Source: a virus. Taken from it: a DNA stretch of 64,000 nucleotides. The notes under the pieces are model-generated. The model was not told the origin of the DNA and made no database searches. It saw only the letters and a list, made by a program, of their open reading frames with translations. How positions within the stretch are numbered: the stretch's first letter is position 1; the number at the start of each line of letters is the position of its first letter. This document shows, piece by piece, positions 43,900 through 61,901 of the stretch. Location of the stretch: the IMG/VR virus record IMGVR_UViG_3300023184_004051, positions 44,671-108,670 of that record; one strand, written 5' to 3'. The position numbers and the translations under genes are program-made.

Positions 43900-45102
43900 A
43901 TGAATATCAACGTGAGAGCCGAACTTGTTGCGATTGACAGCATCAAGGCGCACCCGCAAAACCCCCGACTTGGTGATGTCGCCGCTATTGCCGAGAGTTT
44001 GGAAGTCAACGGTCAGTATTCACCAGTCGTGGTTTGGAACGACACGATTATTGCCGGAACCCACACTTGGAAGGCCGCAAAGAGTCTCGGCTGGACAGAA
44101 ATCGCCGTCACCTACTTTGAGGGCAGCGAGGATGAGGCGCTTCGTGTGCTGATAACCGACAACCGCACGAGTGACATTGCCGTTTACAACAACGAACTGC
44201 TCCTTGACCTGCTGAAATCCCTGCCGGATTTGGAAGGAACGGGCTTTGACACCGAGTATTTAGACGAACTTGACGGTCTACACAACGACACCTCCGGTGG
44301 CATTTCCAAACCTCTCCTTGACGACGAGCCAACCGACGACCCAACACCACCTGTTCCAATCGTTCTTGGTGACTTTCGGGGCTACTTGGACTACGGACTG
44401 CACGACATCTGGCTCTCATCTATCCAAGATGCGGTTGGTGAAAAGAAAGCCAAGATTACTAAGGAAATCCGCAATCGCTTGGACATCCCCAACGACCCAA
44501 AGCCGCCAAAGACGGAAAAGGTCAAGACTTCCAAAACTGCCGACCAAAAGATGACGATGGTGGAAACTACTCTCGTTCCCATCAAAGAACTGAAGCGGTA
44601 TCCAAACAACCCTCGCGAGGGGGACATCGGGGCGATTAGTGAAAGCCTGCGGGTTCTTGGGCAATACCGACCCGTCGTGGTGAATAAGCGCAACAACCAA
44701 ATCCTGAAGGGCAACCACACGGCTGCCGCTGCATCAGCACTTGGCTGGACTGAAGTTGCCGTCGTATGGGTGGATGTGGATGACGAAGCGGCGGCAAAAA
44801 TCGTGCTTGCCGACAACCGAACAGCAGACAAGGCGACCTACGACAACGACCTGCTTCTCTCTGCGATTTCACTACTGGACACTTTGGAAGGTTCCGGGTT
44901 TGACAGTGAGGATGTAGCCGACATCGCACAGGGCAAGAACAGCACCCCCGTCATTGCAAAGGTCAAGTTCCAAATCGGGGATTACTCGTTCTCGACTACA
45001 CAGGGCGCTTACGACGCTTGGGCTGCTGAAACCAATATTCCTGATGAGGCGCTTCACCAACTTGGCTTGCCCCTAACCGCACTTCTAAGGGAAGCAGACT
45101 GA
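43900..45102 (+). CDS. double ParB-like domain protein
   Basis: 400 residues. Two ParB N-terminal-type domains in tandem: first ~residues 5-130 (IKAHPQNPRLGDVAAIAESL, GQYSPVVVWNDTIIAGTHTW, ITDNRTSDIAVYNNELLL), second ~215-355 (KRYPNNPREGDIGAISESL, GQYRPVVVNKRNNQILKGNH, LADNRTADKATYDNDLLL). The linker is charged and Pro-rich. No methylase or ParB HTH follows. Such domains bind CTP or act as nucleases in phages. The internal duplication is clear; the role (DNA partition, packaging or nicking) is open. Confidence 0.85.
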   Translation: MNINVRAELVAIDSIKAHPQNPRLGDVAAIAESLEVNGQYSPVVVWNDTIIAGTHTWKAAKSLGWTEIAVTYFEGSEDEALRVLITDNRTSDIAVYNNELLLDLLKSLPDLEGTGFDTEYLDELDGLHNDTSGGISKPLLDDEPTDDPTPPVPIVLGDFRGYLDYGLHDIWLSSIQDAVGEKKAKITKEIRNRLDIPNDPKPPKTEKVKTSKTADQKMTMVETTLVPIKELKRYPNNPREGDIGAISESLRVLGQYRPVVVNKRNNQILKGNHTAAAASALGWTEVAVVWVDVDDEAAAKIVLADNRTADKATYDNDLLLSAISLLDTLEGSGFDSEDVADIAQGKNSTPVIAKVKFQIGDYSFSTTQGAYDAWAAETNIPDEALHQLGLPLTALLREAD

Positions 45103-52236: not shown

Positions 52237-52884
52237 ATGGCGACTAACCCTTTCTCTCTTGAAAACCTTGCACCAACTTGGGTGCAGGCTACTGAAATCC
52301 TCAAAGGTGACTTCGTTGGTCACCCCTTCCGTGGCAATCAGTGGGAACCCGGCAATAACCTCGGACTAAGCGAGATGACTTACACCGGAAGCGAAAAATG
52401 GAAAACAGTTGACCCGGCGCAAACTTACCAAGTTGGTTTTGGTCGAGATGACATTGGTACAACCCTCACCAGTAAAGGCGATGTTGGCATTTCCATTTAC
52501 GTTTATGACGATTGGCACGACGATATGGGTCAGTTGAATGTCCTAAAGAGCAGCGAACTGAAGTGGGTTTTGGATGGCATCAGTGGCGGAGAAGCCACTT
52601 GCCGCTCTTGCGAAACGACTTCCCCCCTCAAAGATTTCACTACCCCCGAAGTCATTGCTCCTACCGAAAAAGTTGTTCCGGCAAGCCTCGTCAAGGGCGG
52701 TTGCCCACATTGCGCGCAGGAAACGAGCATCGCAACCGTCGGTCAACTCCTTACGGCCTACACCAAAAACCCAACCAGCAAAGAGATAGACGACCTCACG
52801 GATGCTGTTCACGAGTCAATGACTGGAAACTACGGCGGCTACGACACAATGGATGAATACCGCAGCAGTAGCGGAGACTACTAA
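52237..52884 (+). CDS. tagged protein with zinc knuckles
   Basis: 215 residues. Tag: ATNPFSLENLAPTWVQATEI then LKGDFVGHPFRGNQWEPG. Middle region VGFGRDDIGTTLTSKGDVGI is beta-like. Two CxxC pairs (TCRSCETTS at ~120 and GGCPHCAQE at ~155) could hold one zinc. The C-terminus is acidic/Tyr-rich (GNYGGYDTMDEYRSSSGDY). Unrecognised beyond the tag. Confidence 0.65.
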   Translation: MATNPFSLENLAPTWVQATEILKGDFVGHPFRGNQWEPGNNLGLSEMTYTGSEKWKTVDPAQTYQVGFGRDDIGTTLTSKGDVGISIYVYDDWHDDMGQLNVLKSSELKWVLDGISGGEATCRSCETTSPLKDFTTPEVIAPTEKVVPASLVKGGCPHCAQETSIATVGQLLTAYTKNPTSKEIDDLTDAVHESMTGNYGGYDTMDEYRSSSGDY

Positions 52885-52889
52885 GTCCA

Positions 52890-53249
52890 ATGTCCGGTTT
52901 CACCACCAACGAACTTCTCTACCCCCTAACCAAAGGCGACCTACCCGGTCATCCCTTTCACGGAAATCAGTATGAGGCTGGCGCAGGTGAACTGACCCCT
53001 GATGACAGGGTAGACATTGAGGAACTGATTAGCGAACATCAAGGGAGCATCGGTTCGGCGCGTAGTGAAATCTCTGGGTCAAACCAATATCGGGACTCTG
53101 TTGGCGCAGGTGAATACCGGGCGCAACAACTTGAAAACGACATCGCTAACCACGAATACGCCATTGACGCGTTCAAGGTGGCGCTGCACTCTGGCAAAAA
53201 AGAAGATTTGGAATGGGCAAAAGCCCTTTCCGCTAGTGCATACAAGTAG
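52890..53249 (+). CDS. tagged small protein
   Basis: 119 residues. Tag: SGFTTNELLYPLTK then GDLPGHPFHGNQYEAG, nearly the same as that of the ADP-ribosyltransferase-like gene at 45341. The remaining ~85 residues form acidic helices (DDRVDIEELISEHQGSIGSA, YRAQQLENDIANHEYAIDAF). Unknown. Confidence 0.65.
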   Translation: MSGFTTNELLYPLTKGDLPGHPFHGNQYEAGAGELTPDDRVDIEELISEHQGSIGSARSEISGSNQYRDSVGAGEYRAQQLENDIANHEYAIDAFKVALHSGKKEDLEWAKALSASAYK

Positions 53250-53255
53250 GCAACC

Positions 53256-53960
53256 GTGAGTGATTTCACCACGACCTCCCTACTCAAAGGTCTTTCTCGC
53301 TACCCCCTAACAAAGGGGGATTTACCGGGGCATCCGTTCCACGGGAACCAGTGGACAACAGTTGGTGGAATAACCCCCGATGTTGCCAACTTCCTTACGA
53401 AAAACGCTAACAAGTTTTACAGGGCTGGTGGAAAGGTTGAGGTTGTCAAGTTCTACCAACGCAACCTTGCCAATGGTCGCAGCCGTGGAGATGAAAGACA
53501 GCGCCTCTCAAAGGTGCTGGACAAACTCTACGACGAGCAGCGCAAGGAATACGAAACCTCAGGGGATAGTGAAAAATACAAGGAGATTGAGCGCCTGATT
53601 TCGGGCTACTCCTTCACCAAACTTGCCTTGATGGGTTTTGGAAGCGCCATCGTCGCCACCGATAAAGACGGCAATGTGGTCGGGGCAATGAGTTACACCA
53701 CAAATGACGAAAGAATGAAAGTCGGCATCCTCGGCTCATCTAATGAACCTGATGGCGTGGCTACAGCCATTGAGGTGAAAGCGGCATCATTGGCAAACGA
53801 AAACTCCCTAAGGGTTGATAGCGAAGCCACTACAGACGCAGAGCCATATCACCGCCTCATCGGGAGAACCATTAGCGACCCACAAACCCTTGGGAGCAGT
53901 TGGTCAGCAGAGGAAGTCAAAGCAATCGCAGGCTTACCCGTCGGGCCGGAACACATCTAA
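53256..53960 (+). CDS. tagged GNAT-like protein 1
   Basis: 234 residues, GTG start. Tag: SDFTTTSLLKGLSRYPLTK then GDLPGHPFHGNQWTTVGG. A ~75-residue helical part follows. The C-terminal half has AIVATDKDGNVVGAMSYTTN, ILGSSNEPDGVATAIEVKAA and a closing PYHRLIGRT, which fit the beta4-alpha3 and tail of GNAT acyltransferases (G-a-G-AL ... f-e-lGF). Same length as the next gene. Substrate unknown; an injected modifying enzyme is one possibility. Confidence 0.55.
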   Translation: MSDFTTTSLLKGLSRYPLTKGDLPGHPFHGNQWTTVGGITPDVANFLTKNANKFYRAGGKVEVVKFYQRNLANGRSRGDERQRLSKVLDKLYDEQRKEYETSGDSEKYKEIERLISGYSFTKLALMGFGSAIVATDKDGNVVGAMSYTTNDERMKVGILGSSNEPDGVATAIEVKAASLANENSLRVDSEATTDAEPYHRLIGRTISDPQTLGSSWSAEEVKAIAGLPVGPEHI

Positions 53961-54664
53961 TGACACGCTTGGATTTCACTACTGAAGGCTTGCTCTATCC
54001 CTTGACCAAGGGGGATAGCCCCGGACATCCCTTCAGGGGGAACCAATGGCAAACCGTTGGGGGCATCACGCCAGAGGTAGCGGAGTTCATCACCACCAAT
54101 GCAAACAAGTTCTACAAAGCGGGCGGCAAAATCGTCAAAATCAAATCGGGGGCAACAAAACTCCGCAACGGCAAAGACCTTACAGAGGCCCGCCAAGAAA
54201 TGACCGCCAAGATTGAGCAACTGTCCACTAGACAGATGACCCCCGAAACAGAACGCCTCATAGAGGGCTACAAGATGATGCGCCGCAACCTCTCTATGCT
54301 GGACAGGGAAAAAGGCCGTGAAGCCTATGTCGCCTTAGACAAAGACGGAAACATCGCTGGTGTAATCGGCGCAATCCAACAACGCGCAGGGAAAGATTGG
54401 AAAATCACGGAGTTAGGCTCCACTAACGAAATCCCCGGAACCGCAACCGCTTTGGAACACTACATCGCTTCATCGGCAGGGAACACCAACTTAGAAAGTA
54501 TCTCTACAGCAGATGCCGTCAACTACCACACGGCTATTGGTAGAACCCTTGAACCCATCATCCACCCTTATGACAAAACCCCTACAGGAGACTTCACCTC
54601 AAACTGGTCACTCTCCGAGATGCAAGCGATTGCCAAACTCCCCATAGGCCCGAAACACATCTAA
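53960..54664 (+). CDS. tagged GNAT-like protein 2
   Basis: 234 residues, TAATG overlap. Paralogous to the previous gene over the whole length: tag LDFTTEGLLYPLTK then GDSPGHPFRGNQWQTVGG; EVAEFITTNANKFYKAGGKI against DVANFLTKNANKFYRAGGK; AYVALDKDGNIAGVIGAIQ; TELGSTNEIPGTATALEHYI; and an identical ending style (LPIGPKHI against LPVGPEHI). Clear tandem duplication, diverged to roughly half identity by eye. Confidence 0.55.
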   Translation: MTRLDFTTEGLLYPLTKGDSPGHPFRGNQWQTVGGITPEVAEFITTNANKFYKAGGKIVKIKSGATKLRNGKDLTEARQEMTAKIEQLSTRQMTPETERLIEGYKMMRRNLSMLDREKGREAYVALDKDGNIAGVIGAIQQRAGKDWKITELGSTNEIPGTATALEHYIASSAGNTNLESISTADAVNYHTAIGRTLEPIIHPYDKTPTGDFTSNWSLSEMQAIAKLPIGPKHI

Positions 54665-54703: not shown

Positions 54704-55318
54704 ATGTCCGACACTTCCAATACTCCCGAGTTCACCTTGCCGCCCCTTCCCGAAAAGGGTAAGAGGACAGGCAGAAAGACCCTTCTCACCCCAGAGGTCA
54801 CCGATGCCGTTGTAAGGCTTCTCAAAGCCGGAAACTACCTCAGTCAAACAGCACGGTATCTCGGCCTAGACCCAACCACTCTGAACAGTTGGAGGGCAAG
54901 AGGGAACGAACTGATGGCAAGTGGGAGGGAGGATTTGGATGAATACGAACAAATGTTCGTAGACTTCTCCATTGCCGTAGAGAGTGCAAAGGCTGAGGCT
55001 GAAATCAGGGCAGTAGACATCATCCGCAAGGCTATGCCGAAAGATTGGCGAGCAGCAACTTGGTATTTGGAAAGAACCAACAACCGAGATTGGGGAGCAA
55101 CCCAACGGACAGAGGTATCAGGCCCAGATGGAGGGGCTATCCCGATAGATGTGGACAGTGTGTATCGGAAGTTGGAAGCGGTCACCCAAAGGGTCGTTTT
55201 GGAAGCCGAGATTGCATCTCAGCCGACAGAGAGTGCGGAACTACCAGAGAGTGCCGGAGATGGTGAAATAGAGGCCAATGAGCCGGTTGTAGAGAGTGAA
55301 CCGAATAAGGCGTTATGA
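54704..55318 (+). CDS. terminase small subunit
   Basis: 204 residues. Residues ~22-70 (GRKTLLTPEVTDAVVRLLKA, GNYLSQTARYLGLDPTTLNS) are the HTH that binds the packaging site. KAEAEIRAVDIIRKAMPKDW and ATWYLERTNNRDWG are conserved in the small terminase/phBC6A51-like family. The C-terminus is acidic. It is separated from the large subunit by 2 kb of mainly non-coding DNA, which is unusual. Confidence 0.85.
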   Translation: MSDTSNTPEFTLPPLPEKGKRTGRKTLLTPEVTDAVVRLLKAGNYLSQTARYLGLDPTTLNSWRARGNELMASGREDLDEYEQMFVDFSIAVESAKAEAEIRAVDIIRKAMPKDWRAATWYLERTNNRDWGATQRTEVSGPDGGAIPIDVDSVYRKLEAVTQRVVLEAEIASQPTESAELPESAGDGEIEANEPVVESEPNKAL

Positions 55319-55447: not shown

Positions 55448-55746
55448 GGCCGCAACAAGGCGGCCCAAAAACATAGAAGTTCAGGGACTACACACCCTGC
55501 ACCTCTACCGCAAACAGCGAACAAGAGCCGGCCCCGCCACAAGACTGACCTGTCCAAGTCAGAGGGGTCGGCTTGTTGCGTTGTAGGGCATTGACGGTTA
55601 GTGAAATGTGCGATTACGCTCTTGGTTGAAGTGGCCGCTACAGAAACCCATAGGTCTAAAGGGTCTGCAACCTTTACTGACGAGTAGGGCGCTGCTTCTA
55701 GGGCAACAGCAGACCCGCCTCCCTTTTGCGACGGCGGGGAGTTTTT
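55448..55746 (+). ncRNA. candidate structured RNA 1
   Basis: Between a sigma70-type promoter and two terminators. Internal hairpins include GGCCGC-AACAAG-GCGGCC, CAGGG-ACTACACA-CCCTG, a long stem CCGGCCCC / GGGGTCGG (about 55541-55578) enclosing GACT...AGTC, and GCTG...CAGC. The only ORF reading through (from 55608) runs past the terminators and has no protein-like content. Ends are inferred. Confidence 0.5.
55714..55746 (+). terminator. intrinsic terminator of RNA 1
   Basis: CCCGCC / GGCGGG stem followed by GAGTTTTT. Confidence 0.75.
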
Positions 55747-55748
55747 GG

Positions 55749-55785
55749 CTAAGACCTCCGCACTATGCGGGGGTCTTAGTTATTT
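55749..55785 (+). terminator. second terminator, 13-bp stem
   Basis: CTAAGACCTCCGC pairs with GCGGGGGTCTTAG (one T-G pair) around ACTAT, followed by TTATTT. Confidence 0.8.
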
Positions 55786-55807: not shown

Positions 55808-55928
55808 AAAAAACCCCGAGTTTTGGAAAACTCCGCAGATTTCAGCAGATTTTCGTAGACGAAAAACCCCCCGTTCCAAAACGCAACACGGGCAGACAAA
55901 AACCCCCTCGCAAGCGAAAACAAGGGGG
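55808..55928 (-). terminator. three tandem leftward terminators
   Basis: Read on the minus strand, three stem-loops each run into GGGG(G)TTTTT: GAGTTTTCCAAAACTC then GGGGTTTTTT (to 55808); CCCGT...ACGGGGGG then TTTTT (to 55863); and CCCCCT...AGGGGG then TTTTT (55928-55898). The first to act on RNA 2 is the last named. Together they would stop leftward transcription from entering the small terminase operon. Confidence 0.7.
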
Positions 55929-56018
55929 CTTCGTCTTAGTTAGGGAGGGCAACACCGCAGCCGTCGTCGAATGAATACCGACTAAGGAAAAACAGAGAAA
56001 CGACGACTACGGGTTGCC
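55898..56018 (-). ncRNA. candidate small antisense RNA (RNA 2)
   Basis: About 121 nt from a near-perfect promoter to an intrinsic terminator. The 5' part folds into a stem (GGCAAC/GTTGCC, CCG/CGG, GTCGTCG/CGACGAC, with internal loops) closing a 31-nt loop (55969-55999). The loop contains CCTTAGTCGGT, the complement of the ACCGACTAAGGA leader element of several phage mRNAs. Pairing would reach 15 bases with the leader of the gene at 62202 and 12 with those at 10395 and 61901. Existence of the RNA is an inference from these signals. Confidence 0.6.
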
Positions 56019-56025
56019 GACTCAC

Positions 56026-56054
56026 ATCATAAAGCGAACACAGGTTCGTGTCAA
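56026..56054 (-). promoter_or_regulatory. promoter TTGACA-N17-TATGAT (minus strand)
   Basis: The closest match to consensus in the window. Start expected near 56019, exactly at the first base of the RNA 2 stem. Confidence 0.85.
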
Positions 56055-56114
56055 GCGGTATGTGACACCCCCCTCGTAAACTTGTTCCCGGAGGGGTCTG
56101 TCTCCGTACAGCGC

Positions 56115-56232: not shown

Positions 56233-56243
56233 ATCGGGCAAAG

Positions 56244-56271
56244 AAAAAAGCCCCACCCCGAAGGGTGAGGC
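56244..56271 (-). terminator. intrinsic terminator of RNA 4 (minus strand)
   Basis: GCCTCACCC-TTCG-GGGTGGGGC followed by TTTTTT: a perfect stem (one T-G pair) with TTCG loop. Confidence 0.9.
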
Positions 56272-56661
56272 TCTGTCTCGCAAGGCTACTTATCGGATTT
56301 CCCTTTTCCTCAGGCTAACCGCTCTCGCTCCCCACTTCCTAGACAGCGCGGCTACACCTCCTACGAGTGCCACTTCTAGGCTTGCCCGCACACTTGCGCG
56401 ATTGGGCTTTGAGTATTTGTGACCCGATGAGTCTGGCGTGTCACCCTGCTAGCCCACACGCCTTTGGATGGAAGGTCAAGCGCAACCTGCCGGCCCGCTA
56501 TCGCTCGTCATCCTCCGGCGCAGAACGCACATAGGGATTTCCCTTTCTAAGAGGTAGACCCCCCCAAACTGCTCAGCCTTAGAAGCCCGCAGCCCAAAGT
56601 GACACAACACACCCATCGGATTTCGTTGTCAAGGAACTTCGTGAGGTCTACCGCCCCTCAC
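56244..56661 (-). ncRNA. candidate large structured RNA 4 (~418 nt)
   Basis: Bounded by a promoter (56668-56696) and a perfect terminator. It opens with CGTGAGG...CCTCACG at the predicted first bases, and contains GGCGTGT...ACACGCC, CCTAGA...TCTAGG with an inner GTGGC/GCCGC, and two copies of AAAGGGAAATCC. Frames on either strand are short or lack starts. Not recognised as tmRNA, RNase P or 6S RNA. Possibly a giant phage RNA of the ornate (GOLLD-like) kind, but this is only a suggestion. Confidence 0.5.
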
Positions 56662-56667
56662 GCAACT

Positions 56668-56696
56668 ACCATACACCACTCTAGTTTGGAAGTCAA
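56668..56696 (-). promoter_or_regulatory. promoter TTGACT-N17-TATGGT (minus strand)
   Basis: 17-nt spacing, start near 56661, at the base of the first hairpin of RNA 4. Confidence 0.7.
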
Positions 56697-56722: not shown

Positions 56723-56836
56723 TCAACAACCTTCCTCTCGCATCTGGCTCAACAGCATCTCATCTGCGAGTGCTTCCAAGTCCTCGTCGGACATACCCTC
56801 GAAGTTGCTCGCTACCATCTCATCCCAAGTCATCAT
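56723..56836 (-). CDS. small acidic protein, 37 aa
   Basis: ATG 56836 (tandem ATGATG) follows GAGGTG at good spacing, and the promoter lies 36 nt upstream. Peptide MMTWDEMVASNFEGMSDEDL, then EALADEMLLSQMREEGC: acidic and helical, typical of small phage regulators. It is the only credible ORF on the minus strand of this block. Confidence 0.65.
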   Translation of the reverse strand: MMTWDEMVASNFEGMSDEDLEALADEMLLSQMREEGC

Positions 56837-56871
56837 CAGTCACCTCGTTCTCGTTGTATCTACTACACCAC

Positions 56872-57310: not shown

Positions 57311-58276
57311 ATGAACCAAATCATCCAGCGGCTTTTGGAAGCCGGCCCCGAACAGAAGCGGCAAATCTTGTCGAGTCTGTCAAAAGACGAGTTAGCAGTC
57401 GTCTACCGTGAGTTGGAAGTCATCGAAAGCAGCCCAACACGGCGTTGGTATTGCCCCCGTGAGGTCTGCAACGGCGAGCCACACGCAGGATTTCACTGGT
57501 GCGACCACCCGATTGACGGGAACCACACGCCATACTGCAAGCACGCTCGAACACCACAGCGCCCGCCGGAGGAAACGGCAGACAAGCCGTGGCTTACTTG
57601 GTTCTTTAGCGGCGGTCGAGGAACGGGAAAGACACGAGCCGGAGCCGAGTGGGTTTTGGATTTGGTATGGAACCAAGGCTACAAGCGCATCGCACTTGTC
57701 GGTCGAACACCAGCCGATGTCCGAGATGTGATGATTTACGGGGATAGTGGAATAATGTCCGTGAGCGACCCCCATCCCCGCCCCACACACGAGCCGACCA
57801 AGCGCAGGCTCATCTGGCCGAATGGGGCGCAAGCCTTCACCTATTCCGCCGCCGCTCCGAGTCAGTTGCGTGGCCCTCAGCACGATGCGGCGTGGTGCGA
57901 TGAGTTGGCCGCTTGGACTGACGCTCCAAAGGGCGATGTTTTGGACACCTCTTGGAACAACCTGATGCTCGGCTTGCGTCTGGGGACAAATCCAAAGGCG
58001 CTCGTCACCACCACTCCAAAACGAGTCAAGTTGGTTCGACAAGTTATGGAGCGTCGAACAACCGTGATTACACAAGGAACGACCTACGAGAACCTTTCCA
58101 ATATGGCCGCTTCCTTCCGTGAGAACGTGCTTGCGGCCTACGAAGGCACACGCATTGGCGAACAGGAGTTGATGGGAACCCTCCTGACAGATGTTGACGG
58201 TGCAATGTGGACTTTGGAAATGCTCGAAAATCGAGCCGAACTTGTCGCAAGCGTGCGAGCGGGGCTAGATGATTAG
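57311..58276 (+). CDS. terminase large subunit, ATPase part
   Basis: 321 residues. A 95-residue N-terminus with a Cys/His group (YCPREVCNGEPHAGFHWCDH) is followed by Walker A FFSGGRGTGKTRAGAEW (~97-113), QLRGPQHDAAWCDELAAW with the Walker B-type CDE (~185-202), and the coupling motif VTTTPKR (~235). This is the DNA-packaging motor. It stops at TAG 58276, where a full-length protein would continue into the nuclease; the next ORF overlaps by 8 nt in the +1 frame. Confidence 0.9.
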   Translation: MNQIIQRLLEAGPEQKRQILSSLSKDELAVVYRELEVIESSPTRRWYCPREVCNGEPHAGFHWCDHPIDGNHTPYCKHARTPQRPPEETADKPWLTWFFSGGRGTGKTRAGAEWVLDLVWNQGYKRIALVGRTPADVRDVMIYGDSGIMSVSDPHPRPTHEPTKRRLIWPNGAQAFTYSAAAPSQLRGPQHDAAWCDELAAWTDAPKGDVLDTSWNNLMLGLRLGTNPKALVTTTPKRVKLVRQVMERRTTVITQGTTYENLSNMAASFRENVLAAYEGTRIGEQELMGTLLTDVDGAMWTLEMLENRAELVASVRAGLDD

Positions 58277-58898
58277 AGTCACGCCAGACGATTTCACTCG
58301 CATCGTCATAGGGGTTGACCCATCCGTGACTTCAGGCGAGAGCGCAGACGAAACGGGCATCGTTGTAGTTGCAGCCGGCCCACACCAGCCCGATACTTGC
58401 GTGATTGAGACTTGCGACAGCCACGGCTATGTGCTACAGGATGCGACGCTCGCCAAGACCAACAAGAACAGCGTTGACGCTTGGGTGCAACGGGTCATCG
58501 AGGTCTTTGACGATTGGAACGCCAACCTTGTTGTGGTGGAAAGTAATCAGGGCCACGAACTTTTGGAAATGGCGCTGCGGACAAAGCGGCCTGACCTACC
58601 CATCAGCAGACCGAACGCCAAGGAGAACAAGAAGGCACGAGCCGAACCCATTGTGGCGCTCTACGAGCAGGGTCGAGTTCACCACGTTGGCGACGCTGCG
58701 CAGTTCGCTCAGTTGGAGGAACAGATGACGACTTGGGTTCCATCACCAGACGGCAAGCGGCGAGGCAAGTCACCTGACCGCGTTGACGCTCTTGTATGGG
58801 CGCTCGCGGAACTGAACTTGCAGGGCAAGAAATACCGCAAGCAGTTGGAAGCGTTTGCTCCGGTCAACTTCGAGCAACGCAATATGTGGCGTATCTAA
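58269..58898 (+). CDS. terminase large subunit, nuclease part (separate ORF)
   Basis: 209 residues, ATGATTAG overlap. RIVIGVDPSVTSGESADETG supplies the first Asp, VVVESNQGHELLEMAL the Glu, and GKSPDRVDALVWALAEL the last Asp of the RNase H-like headful or cos nuclease. In most phages this is fused to the ATPase. Either a real split with coupled translation, a +1 frameshift, or an assembly error of one base. Confidence 0.9.
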   Translation: MIRVTPDDFTRIVIGVDPSVTSGESADETGIVVVAAGPHQPDTCVIETCDSHGYVLQDATLAKTNKNSVDAWVQRVIEVFDDWNANLVVVESNQGHELLEMALRTKRPDLPISRPNAKENKKARAEPIVALYEQGRVHHVGDAAQFAQLEEQMTTWVPSPDGKRRGKSPDRVDALVWALAELNLQGKKYRKQLEAFAPVNFEQRNMWRI

Positions 58899-59684: not shown

Positions 59685-60043
59685 TACTTCACCTCTTTCG
59701 GTTGGAAGTTCCACGCCTCGGCAAACTCCCACGCCTCTTGCAAGAGGTCAGCAGGGGCTTCCTTAGCCGTGATGGTCAACTCAATCAGGCCAAACTCAGC
59801 CAGCCTCATCAAGAACGCTTCATCGCTCATCTCATCGTCAATGAGGATGCGATACTGCACGAACACCCGATAGGCAATGCCACGCTTCGGGTATTTGTGG
59901 TCCATCGGGTTGTAAGACCGCTCACCAATGATGGCGAGGATGTCAAACGCTGATGGTTGGATGATGATGTCCTTACCCCACCTCACCTGCCATACAGCAG
60001 ATGAGGGGGAGAACAGAGCATCGTTGGGCATCTCGGGCATCAC
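59684..60043 (-). CDS. hypothetical protein
   Basis: 119 residues (GTG 60043 or ATG 60040). FSPSSAVWQVRWGKDIIIQP, a central RVFVQYRILIDDEMSDEAFL and an acidic helical end. Overlaps neighbours by 1-4 nt. Unrecognised. Confidence 0.65.
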   Translation of the reverse strand: MMPEMPNDALFSPSSAVWQVRWGKDIIIQPSAFDILAIIGERSYNPMDHKYPKRGIAYRVFVQYRILIDDEMSDEAFLMRLAEFGLIELTITAKEAPADLLQEAWEFAEAWNFQPKEVK

Positions 60044-60771
60044 GCAATCGCCTTTCTGCTCTCGCCAATGGCGAGGCTTTCCAAAATCTCACCGTTGCGA
60101 ACACGGAGGTAAGTCATAGGCTCAATGTCCTCAGCCCACGACAGGTCAACCCGTGCGTCAGCACACGCGGCGACGAGCAGAGGCATCGTGGAGGCAAAGA
60201 ACAATGATCCAGTTTTGGTTGCTCCCACCGCCAACGGAGAGCCGTCAACACGAGCGAGGTGGAGGTCACGCTTGTCCTTAGCGTCAAGCCACGCCAGAGC
60301 CGCACGACCTTTGAGCGAACGCAACACCTCAGATGGGGCGTAGACCGTTCGGTTGAGAAGTGCGAACGCAGCCTCACTGTCAACCTGAGCCTTACGAGCC
60401 TCACGGAAGTAGTCAAACACCGCCTTGTCGTTGGAGAGGACACCGTTGTGAACACCAACGATGCGACCACTCACGATGGGATGGTTGTTCAGGTTGTTCT
60501 CCGGTGAGCCTTGCGTCGCCCAACGAGTGTGCAGGATGACCCGCTTCGTGGAGGATGGCATTTGCTTCAGGTAGGGGTCAAACGAGTAAGCGGGGATTGG
60601 CGCTTTGCTGACGGCTATGGTAGCCTTCTTGGTTTGCTTGTTGCTTTGCACCCAAGCCGCTCCTGTCGCATCCTCACCACGAGAAACGATTTGGTTGAGT
60701 AGTGCCATAGACACCTTTCGAGCGTTGATGCTCTCGTCTTTGTGGAGACAAAATCCAGCGATACCACACAT
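60040..60771 (-). CDS. class II glutamine amidotransferase
   Basis: 243 residues. MCGIAGFCLHKDESI places the catalytic Cys at position 2. LLNQIVSRGEDATGAAW, ILHTRWATQGSPENNLNNHP and IVGVHNGVLSND are the Ntn-glutaminase motifs. There is no synthase domain after the glutaminase, so it supplies ammonia or acts on a peptide amide for a partner. The amidoligase gene upstream is that probable partner, an arrangement known from phage and bacterial peptide-modifying clusters. The leader has ACCGACTA. Confidence 0.9.
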   Translation of the reverse strand: MCGIAGFCLHKDESINARKVSMALLNQIVSRGEDATGAAWVQSNKQTKKATIAVSKAPIPAYSFDPYLKQMPSSTKRVILHTRWATQGSPENNLNNHPIVSGRIVGVHNGVLSNDKAVFDYFREARKAQVDSEAAFALLNRTVYAPSEVLRSLKGRAALAWLDAKDKRDLHLARVDGSPLAVGATKTGSLFFASTMPLLVAACADARVDLSWAEDIEPMTYLRVRNGEILESLAIGESRKAIA

Positions 60772-60788
60772 TTTCTTTCTGCTTTCTG

Positions 60789-60796
60789 TAGTCGGT
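60789..60796 (-). promoter_or_regulatory. ACCGACTA leader element of the amidotransferase gene
   Basis: ACCGACTACAGAAAG, 17 nt before the start at 60771; partial match to the antisense loop of RNA 2. Confidence 0.4.
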
Positions 60797-60811
60797 TTGT
60801 TGAGAGGTTGG

Positions 60812-60845
60812 TCACCTCCCCCCGCCCGCAGGAGAGGGGAGGTGA
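60812..60845 (-). terminator. 10-bp hairpin between amidoligase and amidotransferase
   Basis: TCACCTCCCC pairs exactly with GGGGAGGTGA. No T-run on the minus strand, so it probably reduces or processes rather than ends the transcript. Confidence 0.5.
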
Positions 60846-60851
60846 GAGCGA

Positions 60852-61901
60852 TTAGGAACGGCTACCCGTGAGGCGAGTGGCACGACGGTTGAGGAATGAC
60901 TTGGTGTCATTCCCAAGTGAGGTTGCATCCATCAGCGCCGAGAGGGAACCGAAGTTCTCGGAGGCAACCGGCATCGCAACGGCAGACTCAATGAGAGCCA
61001 AGACGAACTTGACCCACGAAGCCACCTTCTCGCCGTTCAGGGTGCCTTGGTGCTGACGGAACTCAATCGTTCCGTACTTGGCGTAAGCGGTCAAGTTGAT
61101 GACCGAGTAGCGACCAAAGTTGCGAGAGGCATCACTGATTTGCGATGGGGTCACCGCAGAGCGCACGGTGGCGTAGTTGCCGTAGCGAGTCCCGACACCC
61201 AAGTTGAGTGGCGAGCAGTAGCCGTTGGTCTGGCGTGACCGAGCGATGATGGTGTTGATGTGACCCTGATTTGCAGAGTAGAGGTCAAGCACCTTCATAA
61301 TGTCAGCACCCGTGAGGTTGTTCATCCCAACGTGAACGTGAAGTCCGCAGGTGCGGTCAACACGACCACCGGCACGAAGCAAGGTTGAGACTGCCAACGA
61401 TGCCTCAGCGAGTCCAGCCTCGCCCTGAAGGATTGGCGACACCAACTCCAAGCCACCGACACCCGTGCCGGTTCCGGTCACCGAGCCATCGGTCACGATT
61501 TTCCAACCGGACATCACACGGTGCGTGTAGCCCTCGTATGAAACCGAGATGCCAACGGCACGGAGAGCGTCAACAGCAACCGTCGGGCGGATGCCAAAGA
61601 ACTCAGCCTCGATGCCGAAGGTGCGGTTGGAAGGCATTGCCCCCGTGACCCGAACGGCAGGTGCAGTCTGAGTTGCCACCGATGCCACAGCACCAGAGGC
61701 AAGGCGGGCGGATGCGGCTCGGCAGGCTTCAGCCGCACCCTGAGCGGCTGCGTAGCCAAGTCGGTTAGCGATTTCGGCGTAAGCCAATCCACGCTGACGA
61801 AGTGCAAGCGCCTCGTTCTGACGAGCGTGCGTTGCGGAGATGGAACGGTTGCCACTGAGGTTGCTGCGGCGGTAGTTCGTTGGTCGGTTCGTTGCAGGCA
61901 T
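60852..61901 (-). CDS. amidoligase-family protein (COOH-NH2 ligase)
   Basis: 349 residues. Residues ~25-75 (NEALALRQRGLAYAEIANRL) are an HTH-like segment. The catalytic part begins RTFGIEAEFFGI (~97), continues KIVTDGSVTG and GLELVSPILQG, then TCGLHVHVGMNNL (~190) and GTIEFRQHQGTLNGEKVASW (~295): the pattern of Amidoligase_2 within the glutamine-synthetase/GCS-like superfamily. Such enzymes join amines to carboxyl groups using ATP. Likely works with the adjacent amidotransferase to tag or crosslink a peptide or wall component. Confidence 0.85.
   Translation of the reverse strand: MPATNRPTNYRRSNLSGNRSISATHARQNEALALRQRGLAYAEIANRLGYAAAQGAAEACRAASARLASGAVASVATQTAPAVRVTGAMPSNRTFGIEAEFFGIRPTVAVDALRAVGISVSYEGYTHRVMSGWKIVTDGSVTGTGTGVGGLELVSPILQGEAGLAEASLAVSTLLRAGGRVDRTCGLHVHVGMNNLTGADIMKVLDLYSANQGHINTIIARSRQTNGYCSPLNLGVGTRYGNYATVRSAVTPSQISDASRNFGRYSVINLTAYAKYGTIEFRQHQGTLNGEKVASWVKFVLALIESAVAMPVASENFGSLSALMDATSLGNDTKSFLNRRATRLTGSRS

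Follow-up and report, generated by a model that had tools for sequence, protein, structure and literature searches.

A probable new family of modular structured RNAs in related environmental tailed phages

Background

The described systems with which the RNA presented here was compared are GOLLD, ROOL and the pRNA of phage phi29. GOLLD has a conserved 3' region and a less conserved 5' region, and its covariance model is part of Rfam (PMC12286853). The new family resembles GOLLD, as outlined in that source, in plan only: a large structured RNA borne by phages, with a conserved 3' part and a more variable 5' part. It differs in that GOLLD is often longer than 800 nt, as against 156-597 nt here, and often lies near tRNA islands, whereas no tRNA was present in any member locus scanned. 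With ROOL it shares a phage location and an intricate fold, but not the tRNA island. The phi29 pRNA is also a phage RNA, and two copies of the new RNA lie by terminase genes; the other members, however, lie elsewhere, none matched Rfam, and the new RNA is larger and modular.

The predicted RNA and its signals

We analyzed a stretch of 64,000 nucleotides (the window) corresponding to positions 44,671 to 108,670 of the 108,670 bp virus record IMGVR_UViG_3300023184_004051. The predicted RNA, about 419 nt from promoter to terminator, sits between terS and terL (Table 1). An earlier note on this DNA had proposed a structured non-coding RNA equipped with a promoter and a terminator, which was upheld by both signals and by homologs with compensatory base changes (see below); likewise, no ORF of at least 60 aa was found inside the RNA on its strand, in agreement with the claim that no credible ORF exists. 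The folding z score of the minus strand was -2.64, with 0 of 100 shuffles folding as well; that of the plus strand was -0.10, with 47 of 100 as good. The first bases do form a 7-bp hairpin (56662-56656 with 56646-56640), and the repeat AAAGGGAAATCC, 12 nt long, was indeed present twice, at 56546-56535 and 56306-56295; an exact repeat of that length appeared in 1 of 200 dinucleotide shuffles. A long-range stem described as exact held up only in part: GGTAGACC (56652-56645) and GGTCTACC (56560-56553) are exact complements that could form an 8-bp pair, but L109, the nearest relative, has lost this stem, which would also exclude the 5' hairpin from pairing; it is therefore not a conserved feature.

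Table 1 Features of the window at and around the predicted RNA
Feature	Position	Strand	Basis or remark
RNA transcript	56243..56661	-	promoter, terminator, fold and homologs in 13 further contigs
Sigma-70-type promoter, TTGACT-17-TATGGT	56668..56696	-	9/12 consensus match
5' terminal hairpin, CGTGAGG/CCTCACG	56640..56662	-	sequence; geometry roughly kept in L109, letters changed
Middle module	56422..56551	-	common to window and L109, partly to L108
Covarying arm closed by CCUAGA/UCUAGG (L109: CCCAAG/CUUGGG)	56338..56380	-	covariation
Conserved 3' core: P1 GUGGGG/CCUUGC, P2 CGG/CCG, P3 CCU/GGG, 8-nt loop GAGGAAAA	56280..56339	-	model R1 and covariation
Intrinsic terminator: 12-pair hairpin, UUCG loop, T run	56247..56274	-	sequence
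terS	54704..55318		
terL, apparently as two overlapping genes	57311..58898	+	321-aa ATPase, 209-aa nuclease
Four consecutive ORFs	52237..54664	+	short KGDxxGHPFxGNQ motif near N-termini
Glutamine amidotransferase gene adjoining amidoligase gene	60040..61901	-	
Second probable small RNA	55896..56019	-	~20-bp hairpin, strong terminator
Its promoter, TTGACA-17-TATGAT	56026..56054	-	11/12 consensus match
Acidic small ORF, 37 residues (MMTWDEMVASNFEGM...)	56726..56839	-	9/12 promoter
Hairpin-rich stretch	55590..55760	+	terminator-like end

Other small elements lie nearby. The second probable small RNA had a folding z of -7.05 relative to shuffles, and the region 55860-56060 gave no match in isolate phages. 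The acidic ORF is situated just upstream of the RNA. The hairpin-rich stretch looked structured and folded no better than shuffles (z 0.55).

The RNA of the window was 92% identical to that of L109, reaching 96-99% within 56401-56600, compared with 70% for the aligned terminase DNA and mostly random-like values of 31-50% for neighboring intergenic DNA; the flanks of the RNA were not alignable. An island of 84-99% identity over 56301-56600 stands within saturated flanks. The pattern of indels in the RNA argues against conservation of a reading frame. This high identity could reflect strong constraint, recent transfer of a cassette, or both.

Homologs and family membership

The homolog search that the earlier note had suggested yielded 13 further contigs. 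The family thus comprises 14 contigs with the window, all IMG/VR phage contigs, and 11 distinct RNAs, as L119, L123 and L124 carry one RNA and the near-identical RNAs of L164 and L168 were counted as one. The L165 contig ends within its RNA; the ten complete RNAs measure 156, 157, 265, 300, 335, 379, 419, 423, 446 and 597 nt. A search of 38 terminase-relative records with the window RNA gave one clear match, G021, limited to the last 95 nt at 81% identity, and terminator or short matches only in five others. A pattern from the part common to the window and G021, scanned over IMG/VR, retrieved nine stretches, of which six were true; L119, L123 and L124 came from additional patterns, and L163, L164, L165 and L168 from a pattern for the conserved 5' hairpin.

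Several searches were unproductive. A scan with GGGAAATCCGATAAG gave 15 stretches, none similar over more than about 22 nt; a relaxed core pattern gave 18 new stretches, all chance; and a middle-module pattern added only L172, a chance match. No real member appeared among 84,980 bacterial and archaeal species scanned with one exact pattern, GGTTAGCCNNNGGAAANGGGAA, which returned seven stretches, all lacking the rest of the core. There was no real member either in 50,697 isolate-phage records by blastn; isolate phages gave nothing with the L108 and L163 RNAs and short, mostly terminator-type matches with L081, and blastn of the window RNA against 79 TerL-relative loci and isolate phages returned only terminator hairpins and short chance matches. 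Among these 79 terminase-relative loci one, G021, had the RNA, and of 76 searched with the model, 75, many of them fragments, had no core match better than E 0.39. A literature search outside bioRxiv yielded no description of this family. Because the family is narrow and comes from related phages, the covariation described next rests on about five lineages.

Covariation of the core, arm and 5' hairpin

Nine of the 11 distinct RNAs have in common a 3' core of 59-60 nt with helices P1, P2 and P3. Across the nine distinct sequences and 12 pairs, all 108 cells were canonical; double changes occurred in four pairs (8 cells), 0 of 500 shuffles reached the covariation score, and slid controls of the pairing dropped to 25-56% paired. 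P1 reads GUUGUG/CACAAC in L106 and GUUGGA/UCCAGC in L108, and P2, generally CGG/CCG, is UGG/CCA in L163. The G-U pairs in P1 fix the strand of the RNA. A covariance model (R1) built from eight members found the window core at 79.7 bits, as against 13.1 for the next-best match in the window, and recognized L163, which had been left out of the model, at E 2.7e-13 with a P2 C-G pair replaced by U-A. Note that in the MAFFT alignment (A3) used for RNAalifold and pair counts two P2 pairs are broken in L163; the model-fitted alignment (A7) restores both, and such an alignment leans towards its own structure.

The arm above the core, taken together with it in six sequences, showed six pairs changed on both sides and one of 132 cells unpaired. 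A different 5' hairpin, present in seven members and absent from the window, had three pairs doubly changed between two lineages, weak covariation when taken alone with its five distinct rows. Core-like internal copies in the window, L111 and L168, with a best E of 0.02, are no more than suggestive.

Modular organization

With one exception, the full-length members have the folded tail in common, and the remainder of the RNA grows or shrinks. L106 and L112 consist of a short hairpin plus the core and L119 of a 5' domain plus the core; L110 and L108 have differing inserts between these two parts, and L111 contains 5' domain, middle module and core. L163 is made up of the first 163 nt of L111, at 97% identity, and a core; L168 has the initial 263 nt of L111 (95%). 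The core is not universal, because L168 and L164 retain the 5' domain and have no canonical core. Length varies as 5' and middle modules are gained or lost. A terminator hairpin was present in 10 of 10 complete members, that of L109 without a long T run, and a promoter matching at least 9/12 of the consensus in 8 of 11; the promoters of L106, L112 and L165 were no better than chance.

Genome position and putative hosts

In scans of 10 flanking proteins, the RNAs of the window and L109 were located between terminase genes, on the opposite strand, and those of L106, L112 and L119 near a PD-(D/E)XK exonuclease and small genes. Among the matches listed, those of L108, L110, L111, L163 and L168 had a DNA methylase, long unknown proteins or both in their vicinity. 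The relative G021 has the RNA at 63 kb, whereas its terL lies at about 100 kb. Since the position varies among terminase, exonuclease and methylase genes, the RNA is most probably not a cis-element of terminase. The member phages have many genes in common among the matches listed. The window TerL had 116 isolate-phage matches, 81 of them to phages named for Microbacterium, Arthrobacter or Gordonia, and the best matches of the amidoligase were Arthrobacter phages; the putative host is therefore likely actinobacterial.

As for other genes of the window (Table 1), the split terL layout also occurs in many relatives, and similar-sized ORFs follow TerL in several related contigs. Proteins of L163 and L168 match the four ORFs with the KGDxxGHPFxGNQ motif, among the matches listed.

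Comparison with known RNAs and rival explanations

The cmscan comparison with Rfam recommended beforehand matched no family and hence no GOLLD, tmRNA or RNase P RNA: the window had no match at gathering score, with chance-level matches only at E up to 10; seven member loci likewise had none with the cutoff at E 1, nor did L111 and L108 with the cutoff at E 10. By Rfam or ARAGORN, no tmRNA or RNase P RNA was detected in the window or member loci, and the tRNA search found none in 14 loci (13 member loci and L022) or the window. The ROOL model RF03087, unmatched in the Rfam scans of the window and seven member loci, also failed to match any of 12 member records at E up to 10, in a search where no control genome matched either. 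Of the two readings put forward before, a relative of GOLLD thus finds no support in Rfam (window and seven member loci), in nearby tRNAs or in lengths of 156-597 nt against about 800, and a new class is borne out by homologs with compensatory changes. It is unlikely, too, that the RNA self-assembles into an RNA-only multimer in the manner of GOLLD or ROOL, its conserved 3' and variable 5' parts being separate domains. The broad plan agrees with that given for GOLLD (conserved 3', less conserved 5'; PMC12286853), the RNA is phage-borne, strongly folded and has its own promoter, and a palindrome, GCUAGC, noticed by eye in the middle module, where the complementary arms GGCGUGU/ACACGCC flank it in the window and L109 (CUAG in L108), could be a self-kissing loop; but the palindromic hairpin is absent from the minimum-energy fold, short forms lack the palindrome, the shortest member has 156 nt, no tRNAs are nearby, and no covariance model of GOLLD, ROOL (whose controls were silent too) or another Rfam family matched.

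A sponge or decoy whose repeated motifs titrate a small RNA or an RNA-binding protein of the host seems distinctly improbable. Loops of the NAGGAAAN type and the 12-nt repeat of the window RNA would suit it, but the core-like internal copies reach E 0.02 or worse, and GGA motifs were not consistently enriched over shuffles in the 10 RNAs tested, by which a CsrA-type (CsrB-like) sponge was rejected. The antisense location between terS and terL in the window and L109 might suggest that the RNA regulates the terminase operon in cis or by antisense pairing; the exonuclease or methylase neighbors of other members, the distance in G021 and the RNA's own terminator make this very improbable. The packaging pRNA goes with motors of the phi29 type, and a role of that kind, for which the copies adjoining terminase genes could speak, has hardly any probability: judged by position alone, the RNA does not lie by packaging genes in all members, and 75 records with related TerL had no model match. 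Finally, ordinary intergenic DNA with chance structure could account for a single-sequence folding z of only -2.64, but is already refuted by the comparative evidence, namely covarying helices in homologs and the identity island amid saturated flanks, and its probability is practically nil.

Proposed role and implications

The computed comparisons show a conserved covarying core, variable 5' and middle modules, a terminator in every complete member, a promoter in most and a variable position. That this is a real RNA family is nearly certain. The best overall explanation, which we hold to be probable, is a structured non-coding RNA that is transcribed independently and belongs to an uncatalogued family of related environmental tailed phages. 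We infer that it would act in trans as a self-contained structured RNA, with its function residing in the RNA itself. As to mechanism, the likeliest working model, tentative and at somewhat less than even confidence, is a scaffold whose functional part would be the 3' core, composed of P1, an AGCGA-type bulge, P2, a 4x4 internal loop, P3 with its NAGGAAAN loop and a AUAAGUAG strand. This core would bind a partner, which may be a protein of the phage or host or a second copy of the RNA, and exchangeable 5' modules would tune or extend it. More doubtful is the idea of a new modular class of phage RNA that would be a stand-alone RNA machine, for example a self-assembling scaffold, in which deletion variants from 597 to 156 nt would mark the minimal core.

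Few classes of large structured phage RNAs are known, and the function of GOLLD and ROOL is still open. The natural size series of this family, including the 156-nt form, allows the smallest functional unit to be tested directly by experiment, and the family offers a compact model for the role of large phage RNAs.
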